64,000 nucleotides of DNA from Pseudomonas putida. GTDB taxonomy: Bacteria > Pseudomonadota > Gammaproteobacteria > Pseudomonadales > Pseudomonadaceae. The translations under genes were made by a program, and so were the position numbers. The stretch covers positions 1,950,998 to 2,014,997 of the forward strand of contig CP124529.1 in assembly GCA_029953615.1 (NCBI GenBank), read 5' to 3'. Below are positions 16,799 to 36,869 of the stretch, one piece after another; position 1 is the stretch's first letter; each line of letters starts with the position of its first letter. The notes under the pieces are model-generated. The model ran no database searches, was not told the DNA's origin, and saw nothing but the letters and a program-made list of their open reading frames with translations.

Positions 16799-16863
16799 GC
16801 CCAGCGTTTTCTGGTCCGCCGGACCTGCGCGCAATCCACTCCCAACCTGGACACCGAAAAGCC

Positions 16864-19317
16864 TTGATACGCCTGCTGAAGTTCTTCTGGTGGTCTTCCG
16901 TCGCAGTCATCTGCGCGCTCGTACTCGGTGTGAGCGGTGCGTTTCTGTATCTTAGCCCCAGCCTGCCCTCGGTCGAATCGCTCAGAAGCATCCAGTTGCA
17001 GATCCCCCTAAGGGTGTACAGCAGCGACGGCAAGCTGATTGCCGAGTTCGGCGAAATGCGTCGCTCGCCAATCCGTTTCGCGGAAATTCCCCCACAGTTC
17101 ATCCAGGCGCTTCTGTCGGCCGAGGATGACAACTTCCTCAACCACTATGGTGTCGACCCCAGCAGCCTGATGCGCGCCGCGACCCAGCTGGTGAAAACCG
17201 GGCATATCCAGACCGGCGGCAGTACCATCACCATGCAGGTGGCGAAGAACTTCTTCCTTACCAGCGAACGCAGCTTCTCGCGCAAGACCAACGAAATCCT
17301 GCTGGCCCTGCAGATCGAGCGTGAGCTGACCAAGGACGAGATCCTCGAGCTGTACGTGAACAAGATCTACCTGGGCAACCGCGCCTACGGTATCGACGCC
17401 GCCGCGCAGGTGTACTACGGCAAGTCGATCCGCGACGTGAGCCTGGCGCAGATGGCGATGATCGCCGGCCTGCCCAAGGCACCCTCGCGCTTCAACCCGC
17501 TGGCCAACCCGGTGCGCGCGAAAGAGCGCCGCGACTGGATCCTTGGCCGCATGTACAAGCTGGGTAAGATCGACGAAGCCAGCTACCAGGCAGCCCTTGC
17601 CGAACCGCTCAACGCCAGCTACCACGTGCCCACACCTGAGGTGAATGCACCTTACATCGCCGAAATGGCCCGCGCCGAAATGGTCGGCCGCTACGGCAGC
17701 GACGCCTACACCGAAGGTTTCCGCGTTACCACCACTGTGCCCAGCGACATGCAGGAAATGGCCAACAAGGCCATCCTCAACGGCCTCTCCGCCTACGATG
17801 AGCGCCACGGCTACCGCGGCCCCGAAGCACGTTTCCCGGGCCGCACCCAGGCGGCCTGGCTGCAGGAACTGGGCAAGCAGCGCAGCCTTGGCGGCCTGGA
17901 GCCGGCAATCGTCACCCAGGTCGAGAAAACCGGCCTCAAGGTGCTGACCCGCAGTGGCCAGGAAGAGATGGTGGCCTGGGACACCATGAAATGGGCGCGC
18001 CCGTTCATCAACAGTAACGCCCAGGGCCGTGCGCCGCAGTCACCGGCAGACGTGGCCCAGGTCGGCGACCTGGTACGCCTGCAGCGCCTGGAGGATGGCA
18101 AGCTCAAGTTCAGCCAGGTACCAGGGGCACAGAGTGCACTGGTCACCCTTGACCCGTACAACGGCGCCATCCGCGCCCTGGTCGGCGGTTTCTCGTTCGA
18201 GCAGAGCAACTACAACCGTGCCATGCAGGCCAAGCGCCAGCCGGGCTCGAGCTTCAAGCCATTCGTCTACAGTGCCGCCCTGGACAGTGGCTATACCGCA
18301 TCCAGCCTGGTCAACGACGCGCCAATCGTGTTTGTCGACGAGTACCTGGACAAGGTCTGGCGACCGAAGAACGACACCAATACCTTCCTTGGCCCGATCC
18401 GCATGCGCGAAGCGTTGTACAAGTCGCGCAACCTGGTGTCGATCCGCCTGCTGCAGGCCATGGGCGTGGACCGCACCATCGACTACATCGCCAAGTTCGG
18501 CTTCAACAAACAGGACCTGCCACGTAACCTGTCGCTGGCACTGGGCACCGCTACCCTGACCCCGATGGAGATCGCAACCGGCTGGAGCACCTTTGCCAAC
18601 GGCGGCTACAAGATCACCCCGTACCTGATCGAGCGCATCGAAAGCCGTAGCGGCGAGACGCTGTTCACTGCCAACCCGGCCCGGGTACCGCAAGGTGTCG
18701 AGGACCAGGCGGGCCTGGCAGCGCCCGAACAGCCGATCAGCACCGCCGCCATGCCGGGCGAGGCACCCGCTGCCTTCAGCCAGGTGGCGTCGGCACCGCA
18801 GGCGCCGGCCGTGGCCGAGCAGATCATCGACGGGCGCACCACCTACATCCTCACCAGCATGCTGCAGGACGTGATCAAGCGTGGCACCGGCCGCCGGGCA
18901 CTGGCCCTGGGCCGTACCGATCTGGCAGGCAAGACCGGTACCACCAACGAGTCCAAGGACGCCTGGTTCTCCGGCTACAACGCTGACTACGTGACCACCG
19001 TGTGGGTCGGTTTTGATCAGCCCGAAACCCTGGGCCGCCGCGAGTATGGCGGCACCGTGGCACTGCCGATCTGGATGAGTTTCATGGGCGCGGCGCTCAA
19101 GGACAAGCCTATGCATGCACCGGCCGAGCCGGAAGGCATCCTCAGCCTGCGCGTCGATCCGGTCAGCGGCCGTGCCGCTTCGCCGAGCACGCCGAATGCC
19201 TACTTCGAGCTGTTCAAGGCCGAAGACTCGCCGCCGTCGGTGGACGAACTGGGCACTGGCGCAGCACCGGGCAGCCCGTTGCCGGCGGATGAAGCGGCGC
19301 CGATGGATCTGTTCTAA
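16864..19317 (+). CDS. mrcA: Penicillin-binding protein 1A (bifunctional transglycosylase/transpeptidase)
   Basis: An 817-residue class A PBP that polymerises and cross-links peptidoglycan. It has an N-terminal membrane anchor (residues 8-30). The GT51 domain holds the catalytic glutamate in SAEDDNFLNHYG (E87) and the GGSTITMQVAKN motif. The transpeptidase domain has SXXK at about 462-465 (GSSFKP), the SRN motif in YKSRNLVSIR, and KTGTT near 690. An OB-like insert separates the two domains. The start is a TTG at 16864, where the family sequence MIRLLKFFWWSSVAV begins; the ribosome site is weak. Divergent from pilM. Confidence 0.96.
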   Translation: MIRLLKFFWWSSVAVICALVLGVSGAFLYLSPSLPSVESLRSIQLQIPLRVYSSDGKLIAEFGEMRRSPIRFAEIPPQFIQALLSAEDDNFLNHYGVDPSSLMRAATQLVKTGHIQTGGSTITMQVAKNFFLTSERSFSRKTNEILLALQIERELTKDEILELYVNKIYLGNRAYGIDAAAQVYYGKSIRDVSLAQMAMIAGLPKAPSRFNPLANPVRAKERRDWILGRMYKLGKIDEASYQAALAEPLNASYHVPTPEVNAPYIAEMARAEMVGRYGSDAYTEGFRVTTTVPSDMQEMANKAILNGLSAYDERHGYRGPEARFPGRTQAAWLQELGKQRSLGGLEPAIVTQVEKTGLKVLTRSGQEEMVAWDTMKWARPFINSNAQGRAPQSPADVAQVGDLVRLQRLEDGKLKFSQVPGAQSALVTLDPYNGAIRALVGGFSFEQSNYNRAMQAKRQPGSSFKPFVYSAALDSGYTASSLVNDAPIVFVDEYLDKVWRPKNDTNTFLGPIRMREALYKSRNLVSIRLLQAMGVDRTIDYIAKFGFNKQDLPRNLSLALGTATLTPMEIATGWSTFANGGYKITPYLIERIESRSGETLFTANPARVPQGVEDQAGLAAPEQPISTAAMPGEAPAAFSQVASAPQAPAVAEQIIDGRTTYILTSMLQDVIKRGTGRRALALGRTDLAGKTGTTNESKDAWFSGYNADYVTTVWVGFDQPETLGRREYGGTVALPIWMSFMGAALKDKPMHAPAEPEGILSLRVDPVSGRAASPSTPNAYFELFKAEDSPPSVDELGTGAAPGSPLPADEAAPMDLF

Positions 19318-36082: not shown

Positions 36083-36186
36083 CCCTGTGGGAGCGGGCGT
36101 GTCGAGGCGTCGAACCGCCGCGAACACGGGCGAAGCCCGTGCCATCCACCGAGTCGTCTGCTTCGCGGGCCTGCCCGCTCCCACAG
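36083..36186. repeat. REP pair, family A, left copy interrupted
   Basis: The right copy is intact (CTTCGCGGGCCTGCCCGCTC). The left copy begins CCTGTGGGAGCGGGCGTG but is then interrupted by about 15 extra bases (TCGAGGCGTCGAACC) before the palindrome ends. The interruption replaces the CCC expected from the other family A copies. Confidence 0.85.
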
Positions 36187-36248
36187 ATACCGCGCATGCC
36201 AGGAGATAGTGCAGTTTCTGGGTACGGGCCGGTGCAGGGAATGATTCT

Positions 36249-36276
36249 AAAAGCTGCCCCGGCGAACCAGGGCAGC
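36249..36276 (-). terminator. UUCG-loop terminator of the small ORF
   Basis: On the minus strand, stem GCTGCCCTGG / CCGGGGCAGC with the exceptionally stable TTCG tetraloop is followed by TTTTA. It starts 20 bases after the stop of the 36-residue ORF at 36296-36406 and serves no other visible gene on that strand. Confidence 0.8.
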
Positions 36277-36295
36277 CCTACCACCTGACTAGCCC

Positions 36296-36406
36296 TTAGC
36301 GGGCATCATCGAAGTGGTCGCGCATGAAGTCCCGAACGGTCTTGAGCACAGTCAAGATCCGGATGAACGTCCAAACGCGGCTCAGCGCATCAAGCAAACG
36401 CTTCAT
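36296..36406 (-). CDS. Small 36-residue hypothetical protein
   Basis: The ORF reads MKRLLDALSRVWTFIRILTV, then LKTVRDFMRDHFDDAR. The middle is hydrophobic/amphipathic (VWTFIRILTVLKTV), flanked by basic and then acidic ends. A textbook GGAGG lies nine bases before the ATG at 36406, and a UUCG-loop terminator begins 20 bases after the TAA. Both signals together make it a likely real gene despite its size. No family is recognised. It could be a membrane-associated small protein or a type I toxin-like peptide; neither is shown. Confidence 0.6.
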   Translation of the reverse strand: MKRLLDALSRVWTFIRILTVLKTVRDFMRDHFDDAR

Positions 36407-36474
36407 ATGCCTTGGCCTCCGTGTTGGCGGGCCAATCTTCCAGCATCTAACCGGCGCTTCGATGCCTTCGAAAA

Positions 36475-36496
36475 CCGTGTGGAGGTTTTCGGTGAA
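36475..36496 (+). repeat. 22-bp direct repeat, copy 1
   Basis: CCGTGTGGAGGTTTTCGGTG plus two further A bases, identical to positions 36731-36752. Here it is part of a perfect hairpin CGAAAACC / GGTTTTCG (36469-36491) that exposes GTGTGGA in the loop, a form resembling an Rsm/Csr binding site. Confidence 0.75.
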
Positions 36497-36624
36497 GTGG
36501 CCAGGTTAATGGCCCTTCAAAGTCAGTTGCCGGCATGGTTCTCAGGCCATGTCGAAGGGGCCGGAAAGCAGAATTCTTCTCCTACCCGGCCCATCACCGA
36601 TCAAATCCACACAGGAGCAGCGCG

Positions 36625-36657
36625 ATGATACTTGGGATGTGTTCGCAAAACTGTTAA
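36625..36657 (+). CDS. Ten-codon micro-ORF (doubtful)
   Basis: ATG at 36625 encodes MILGMCSQNC and stop, with AGGAG seven bases upstream. It lies 70 bases before the small-RNA promoter. The Shine-Dalgarno match is the only support. Confidence 0.2.
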   Translation: MILGMCSQNC

Positions 36658-36694: not shown

Positions 36695-36723
36695 TTGACG
36701 CTCCCTGTCAGCCTACTTATGAT
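36695..36723 (+). promoter_or_regulatory. Sigma-70 promoter of the candidate small RNA
   Basis: TTGACG at 36695-36700 and TATGAT at 36718-36723, with a spacing of exactly 17 bases. This is the best -35/-10 pair noticed in the window. The predicted start is near A36730, and no protein-coding gene follows on this strand. Confidence 0.75.
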
Positions 36724-36730
36724 CTTTCTA

Positions 36731-36752
36731 CCGTGTGGAGGTTTTCGGTGAA
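36731..36752 (+). repeat. 22-bp direct repeat, copy 2
   Basis: Identical to 36475-36496 but without the upstream GAAAACC arm; instead its 3' end forms the CGGTG/CACCG hairpin at the 5' part of the candidate small RNA. Confidence 0.75.
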
Positions 36753-36790
36753 ACACCGAGCGAAGGATACTCAGTCCTGTCGCTCAAAAG

Positions 36791-36820
36791 AAAACCGCCT
36801 TTCTCAAGGCGGTTTTTTTT
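36791..36820. terminator. Terminator after the candidate small RNA
   Basis: A perfect 11-bp stem AAAACCGCCTT / AAGGCGGTTTT with loop TCTC, followed by eight T on the plus strand. On the minus strand it gives TTTTCTTTT and can also end the trmB transcript. Confidence 0.93.
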
Positions 36821-36869
36821 CGCCTGCATTTCTGCAGGCATCAGCACATCGAAAGGCCGTATCAGCCGA

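Follow-up and report, generated by a model that had tools for sequence, protein, structure and literature searches.

A probable divergent type I toxin-antitoxin locus with a co-varying antisense stretch in Pseudomonas putida

A stretch of 64,000 nucleotides from Pseudomonas putida (contig CP124529.1, positions 1,950,998 to 2,014,997; hereafter the window) holds, between DUF3392 and trmB, what the original prediction described as an orphan transcription unit for a small RNA (sRNA). Our analysis indicates that the sRNA is no orphan: it forms a two-gene unit, in which it is the antisense partner, with a divergent small-peptide gene on the minus strand (~36618 to 36248). Judging from comparisons of sequences across relatives, the locus is probably a divergently transcribed type I toxin-antitoxin system. 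The features of the sRNA unit (36695-36820, plus strand) are the following.

36695..36723, plus strand: sRNA promoter TTGACG-17-TATGAT (sequence; pattern in related units)
36730..36820, plus strand: predicted antitoxin sRNA of ~91 nt (fold, conserved in relatives; start placed from the -10)
36730..36752, plus strand: 5′-terminal antisense arm of the sRNA, exact copy of 36474-36496 (repeat, co-variation)
36758..36785, plus strand: central hairpin of the sRNA, conserved (folds of the single RNA and of relatives)
36787..36820, plus strand: intrinsic terminator of the sRNA (inverted repeat, fold, conservation)

The proposal of an sRNA gene of ~91 nt with a promoter and a terminator of its own is well supported, also by conservation. 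The TTGACG-17-TATGAT promoter and the terminator, whose hairpin runs into eight T, are both present where they had been placed, and the plus strand has no ORF inside the sRNA, in agreement with the earlier view that no credible ORF lies between the two signals. The RNA from 36730 to 36822 folds with -39.1 kcal/mol against a shuffle mean of -22.9 (z -4.76), and 0 of 200 shuffles folded as well. The promoter motif alone is at chance level (one found in 2.5 kb; shuffles, mean 0.5, sd 0.7), and a consensus terminator scanner gave 0 terminators at the 3′ end of the sRNA, presumably owing to a stem whose A-U part continues into the T run; the case for the sRNA therefore rests on structure and conservation. 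Upon alignment, the promoter pattern was found at the equivalent place in 35 of 37 related units. The by-clade folds, which took 22 of the 27 collapsed loci described below (14 and 8 sequences), kept the central hairpin and the terminator in both clades, with double changes in 4 and 1 pairs and with 15 of 392 and 6 of 152 cells broken, respectively; a consensus fold over mixed clades gave 0 pairs. Two hairpins had been predicted before the terminator, of which the central one is conserved while the small first one (TCGGTG/CACCGA), overlapping the variable antisense arm, is absent from the second-clade consensus. Lack of conservation of the promoter and hairpins in related genomes would, on the terms of the original prediction, have counted against it; the related genomes were checked and do not refute it.

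Using the sRNA alone in a DNA search of 57 genomes, 16 with a match were found, and outside its own genome all matches listed were of the 3′ part including the terminator. An Rfam match for the 91-nt sRNA, the check that had been suggested, was looked for and no family reached its gathering score. The best sub-threshold matches on the plus strand were RNAI (RF00106; 29.7 bits, cut-off 47) and, most relevant among the weak matches, AgrB (RF02891), the antitoxin of dinQ (27.5 bits, E 0.024, cut-off 40). Identity of the sRNA with a known Rfam RNA was hence rejected, all matches being under the cut-off. Elsewhere in the window, on the minus strand at 16843-17136, Rfam's asponA (anti ponA RNA) scored 152.1 bits (cut-off 113).

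The first 23 nt of the sRNA (36730-36752, plus strand) recur exactly at 36474-36496, 256 bp away, a repeat that the original prediction overlooked, as it did the minus-strand gene. The transcript of that gene would carry, 68-90 nt before the start codon, a perfect complement of the sRNA 5′ end, and the predicted sRNA and peptide mRNA are divergent with no overlap. On the minus strand, the features are as given here.

36625..36630, minus strand: predicted -10 (TATCAT) of the peptide gene, with a weak -35 (aligned upstream regions)
36248..36618, minus strand: predicted peptide mRNA of ~370 nt with a long structured 5′ leader (folds; both ends estimated)
36474..36496, minus strand: sRNA target in the 5′ leader, inside a leader hairpin
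36412..36435, minus strand: hairpin holding the Shine-Dalgarno GGAGG at 36416-36420 (RNAalifold columns 207-212/226-231)
36296..36406, minus strand: ORF of a 36-residue peptide (putative toxin), stop codon included (pN/pS 0.32)
36249..36279, minus strand: intrinsic terminator of the peptide mRNA (folds; RNAalifold columns 369-398)

A GGAGG stands nine bases before the peptide ATG. The -10 of the peptide gene was not listed by the promoter scan and the terminator of its mRNA was not listed by the terminator scanner; the fold of 36235-36560 (minus strand) has a z of -5.11. RNAalifold, applied to 25 mRNAs, returned 98 consensus pairs, 28 of them with changes on both sides, and the consensus structures comprised leader hairpins, the antisense-site hairpin, the Shine-Dalgarno hairpin and the terminator. 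Within the Shine-Dalgarno hairpin, a U-A pair is changed to A-U in 3 of the 25 sequences. Most of the loci L109-L151 carry a second GGAGG ~35 nt ahead of the ATG, immediately 5′ to the Shine-Dalgarno hairpin, where the window locus has GGAAG; in the second and third locus sets, this second GGAGG is a candidate ribosome standby site. The LexA-like CTG-N10-CAG is absent from the promoter region of this locus and was found in 2 of 40 units, as a simple core only; SOS control by LexA was rejected for this locus on the absence of that core. Between DUF3392 and the terminator of the peptide gene, at 36085-36186, there is an inverted repeat with CTGTGGGAGCGGGC arms, which we take to be REP-pair-like.

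We then estimated the selection acting on the peptide gene. From 30 distinct coding sequences, a set without the broken loci and without L058 and L060, the pooled pN/pS was 0.32 and the third codon positions varied most (2983, 1933 and 4402 changes at the first, second and third positions), which, by sequence comparison, argues that the ORF is under purifying selection. Nine of the 36 columns are invariant in 25 relatives. Type I toxins are usually, not universally, hydrophobic or amphipathic membrane peptides. The peptide is charged and, unlike classical membrane toxins, not hydrophobic overall (GRAVY -0.08); its helical moment is not clearly above that of shuffled versions, 164 of 2000 being as high, and strong amphipathicity is thus not supported. 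A single helix spanning residues 2-34 was predicted (mean pLDDT 84). The peptide may act on the membrane, although neither its hydrophobicity nor its amphipathicity stands out. No profile matched at E<=1 when the window peptide was searched against Pfam, six family members against NCBIfam and Pfam, and three against PADLOC.

The distribution of the peptide family was estimated by searches of increasing width. A single-peptide search matched 33 of 398 Pseudomonas genomes at E<=0.01; profile A4 (25 rows), at E<=0.05, matched 79 of 398, with many weak matches among them; and profile A5 (27 rows), widened by the relatives from the A4 search, matched 115 of 398 at E<=0.001, sequence-level reading having covered part of the places from the two profile searches. 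Class-wide, a profile search matched 11 of 369 genomes at E<=0.05 including the own genome, the rest being weak (best 5e-4). Among the 30 loci L021-L050 of the single-peptide search, 25 are flanked by DUF3392 or hemW and by trmB, as in the window, and the other five have one of those flanks within the ~1.5 kb fetched. Tandem copies occur in two genomes from the single-peptide search (G123, G195) and in two from the A5 search (G073, G164), and their arms differ. Plasmid copies were found by protein in nine records at E<=0.1 (two at 0.06), eight of them from Pseudomonas; NAH7 and pDR208 carry copies close to a Y-family polymerase gene, and an 8.8-kb plasmid carries a copy with parA near by. In the plasmid records read, no gene is annotated at the locus in five of six, and the sixth has a ‘hypothetical protein’. 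In phage records, tblastn with the peptide gave no match, and the start-region pattern was found in 0 viral contigs; a phage origin was rejected on these grounds.

Some observations were made on individual records. The plasmid pairs L057, L059 and L155 sit in a gap beside a DUF1173 gene; on the other side of the gap, L057 and L059 have a Y-family polymerase gene and L155 has a DUF4113 gene. L064 has a polymerase-like ORF near by, as judged by eye. L062, from a record titled Pantoea sp. Ap-967, shows the Pseudomonas order hemW-DUF3392-peptide-trmB-thiG, and L064, from a record titled Streptomyces sp. IBSBF 2953, is a plasmid-type copy; both records may be mislabelled or contaminated. Aeromonas rivuli, a record not named Pseudomonas, has a plasmid-type peptide copy with an 11-nt repeat (L072).

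Several copies of the peptide gene are broken. A REP-like sequence follows codon 27 in four loci (L044, L056, L049, L050), L061 has a frameshift, and in L048 much of the leader is missing, together with the beginning of the ORF. Five of the seven broken-peptide loci inspected (L061, L048, L044, L049, L056) keep the sRNA promoter and terminator; L050 has kept the terminator and lost the promoter, and L055, where the peptide gene is also broken, has neither. A toxin would be expected to allow loss of the sRNA only after its own gene had been broken, and these cases fit that expectation as far as small numbers go; a counter-case is the 32-residue plasmid type (L058, L060, L084, L086, L108), in which the peptide is intact and a clear repeat is lacking. 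The REP-like insert (TGTGGGAGCGGG...) lies at the same codon in its four loci, which come from three genomes (G093, G310, G361), as if REP elements preferred the codon-27 site of the peptide gene.

An exact repeat in this arrangement is present in 29 of the 40 units of the window lineage and its plasmid relatives (at least 11 nt), in 14 of the 20 loci of a second set and in 20 of the 22 units of a third (both at least 10 nt). Its sequence varies from locus to locus and the position pattern is kept, the copies starting at -71 to -93 and at -328 to -465 (single cases at -536 and, in a tandem copy, at -233). We compared the match of each arm to its own partner with that obtained after shuffling partners. 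The summed scores were 518 against a shuffle maximum of 422 (27 loci, shuffled within clades), 232 against 184 (13 loci, second set) and 315 against 228 (17 loci, third set), and in each case 0 of 10,000 shuffles reached the observed value; the own partner was strictly the best in 22 of 27, 8 of 13 and 12 of 17 loci, that is, not in all. The first of these sets comprised the 40 units minus L048, L050 and L055 (broken) and L058 and L060 (promoter pattern not found), the remaining 35 collapsing to 27; for the second, L117, L122 and L123 were left out (terminator pattern not found) and 15 collapsed to 13; for the third, 22 collapsed to 17, with L153 kept even though the stretch used does not include its repeat. 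Within a locus, the two copies share an identity of 0.95-0.96 over the 19-22 nt that align locally. Matched changes on both sides numbered 796 against 437 one-sided changes in clade A and 101 against 90 in clade B, and columns with at least two matched states were 16 of 22 and 9 of 22, respectively. By these comparisons, the matching stretch co-evolves within loci, which is the signature of an antisense-silenced toxin.

A pair of equal copies whose spacing is fairly constant could also represent operators of one regulator, or a duplication equalised by gene conversion. Operators would be expected to be conserved between relatives, whereas this stretch is far less conserved than its surroundings: identity between loci is 0.68 (clade A) and 0.73 (clade B) for the target, but reaches 0.96 and 0.92 in the 66 nt preceding the ATG and 0.90 and 0.86 over the initial 84 nt of the ORF. 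Moreover, the copies lie inside the predicted transcripts and away from the promoters. In the duplexes of arms with their own targets (58 of 59 loci, score at least 12), the mismatches were 39 G-U-compatible transitions, 8 reverse transitions and 17 transversions; an asymmetry of 39 to 8 follows the G-U pairing of the two RNAs, being predicted by an RNA duplex of both strands and not by DNA sites or plain duplication (p 5.5e-6 if the loci were independent; the loci are related, and p-values are indicative). We find operators or gene conversion scarcely credible. Another reading is that of a trans-acting sRNA with distant targets, for which the repeat would be incidental; the promoter, hairpin and terminator of the sRNA and the GGA in its 5′ arm would suit such a role. 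It is, however, at odds with the co-variation of arm and leader target in three locus sets and with the rarity of the repeat: among 3000 random places of the window, 2 had an exact repeat of at least 13 nt in the same geometry (13 nt at one and, at the other, 23 nt, as long as the repeat of the locus), 17 had one of at least 11 nt and 49 had one of at least 10 nt; at the starts of 130 ORFs of at least 100 residues, a repeat of at least 11 nt was seen once (13 nt). As the main role of the sRNA, distant targets are contradicted by these results and we hold them to be highly improbable; the RNA may have extra targets besides.

A more serious rival accepts the same antisense pair and takes the peptide for a small regulatory protein, not a toxin, whose translation is set by the RNA. 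The charged peptide, not hydrophobic overall and predicted as one helix, could be such a protein, and in the window's lineage the gene occupies one chromosomal site, as a housekeeping regulator might. Its carriage on plasmids (once on the 8.8-kb plasmid with parA near by) and the tandem copies with differing arms do not suit a regulator, nor does a peptide gene that is repeatedly broken while the RNA is kept (five of the seven inspected), and silencing in two layers, by the Shine-Dalgarno hairpin and by the antisense RNA, is typical of toxins. On balance, we consider a regulatory peptide unlikely and prefer the type I toxin-antitoxin reading.

In a type I system, an RNA is complementary to the toxin mRNA; here the 23-nt match, the co-variation and the wobble asymmetry provide for this at the level of sequence. 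The other hallmark, a selected small ORF of fewer than ~60 residues, is found in the 36-residue ORF and its pN/pS. By analogy, the layout is that of the divergent type I loci dinQ/agrB, tisB/istR-1 and zor/orz. According to the available text of the E. coli dinQ/agrAB report, the genes are divergent in one intergenic region, the toxin transcript is ~330 nt, the sRNA begins with 31 nt antisense to that transcript (30 of 31 complementary in the case of agrB), the sRNA has its own -10/-35 and terminator, and refolding hides the Shine-Dalgarno (PMC3567139). The locus studied here shares with it the divergent layout, the antisense 5′ end of the sRNA and the sRNA's own promoter and terminator; it differs in genus, in an AgrB score below the cut-off, in a peptide without a profile match and in having no LexA-like core where dinQ is LexA-controlled. 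Of tisB/istR-1, a structured leader and standby loading are described in the text available (PMC5668327), and of zor/orz, tandem copies and a pairing region that is ‘quite variable’ and ‘may prevent crosstalk’ (PMC11264685); in the same texts, tisB/istR-1 and zorO/orzO are precedents for standby control from antisense sites far upstream. With these two E. coli systems, our locus has in common the divergent layout, the far upstream antisense site and the structured leader, and it is unlike them in genus and site, the peptides having been compared through profile libraries only. In essence, these loci would form a new family within a known kind, the divergent type I toxin-antitoxin, with toxicity being putative.

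What the sequences themselves show is a pair of units, a perfect complement that co-evolves, a conserved Shine-Dalgarno hairpin and an ORF under selection; transcription, repression (by a standby or an RNase III mechanism), toxicity and a trigger we infer, as follows. The minus-strand gene would give the ~370-nt mRNA and, from it, a mostly helical peptide of 36 residues that is probably toxic to the producing cell. Left to itself the mRNA would be translated poorly, since a hairpin holds its Shine-Dalgarno sequence and the long leader is structured; ribosomes would therefore probably make their first contact at a standby site further upstream. The ~91-nt sRNA would be made steadily from its near-consensus, better-matching promoter, and its first 20-23 nt, mostly single-stranded, would pair with the part of the leader that precedes the start codon by 68-90 nt. 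Such pairing could block ribosome loading by occupying the standby site or could refold the leader, and the duplex of sRNA and leader would probably be cut by RNase III. Were the sRNA lost, through loss of the plasmid or locus, or outrun by transcription of the toxin gene, the peptide would be made.

We give about even chances to the further possibility that the pairing stretch is a fast-changing address code of a genus-wide, undescribed family, with a private match in each locus. If so, copies in one cell would not silence each other and the toxin of an incoming plasmid would escape neutralisation by the resident RNA, and the family might also account for ‘toxic sRNAs’, Pit174 being an example. 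This ‘sRNA’ of P. putida KT2440 is described, in the text available, as a ~300-nt transcript from the intergenic region PP_5401/PP_5402, induced by plasmid RP4, for which BLAST found no protein homology and of which over-expression of at least 200 nt costs fitness while that of 100 nt does not (PMC7324555). Pit174 thus behaves as the mRNA of a peptide toxin would; it lies at another site and is likened here by description only.

Since nature supplies many pairs of matched arms, RNA-RNA specificity and cross-talk could be tested directly in laboratory P. putida. The family is not described in the literature consulted on Pseudomonas type I systems, P. putida sRNAs, Pit174 and the E. coli precedents, which was mostly non-subscription text without supplements and is not proof of absence. 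In the available text of a review, the 10 characterised toxin-antitoxin systems of P. aeruginosa are type II (PMC9966142), and in that of a survey of P. syringae, hok-sok is the one type I family found (PMC8790059). Reports on Pseudomonas, as far as these partial texts extend, thus deal almost only with type II systems, and a type I family present in over a quarter of the Pseudomonas genomes sampled (115 of 398) and on plasmids such as NAH7 would change that picture.
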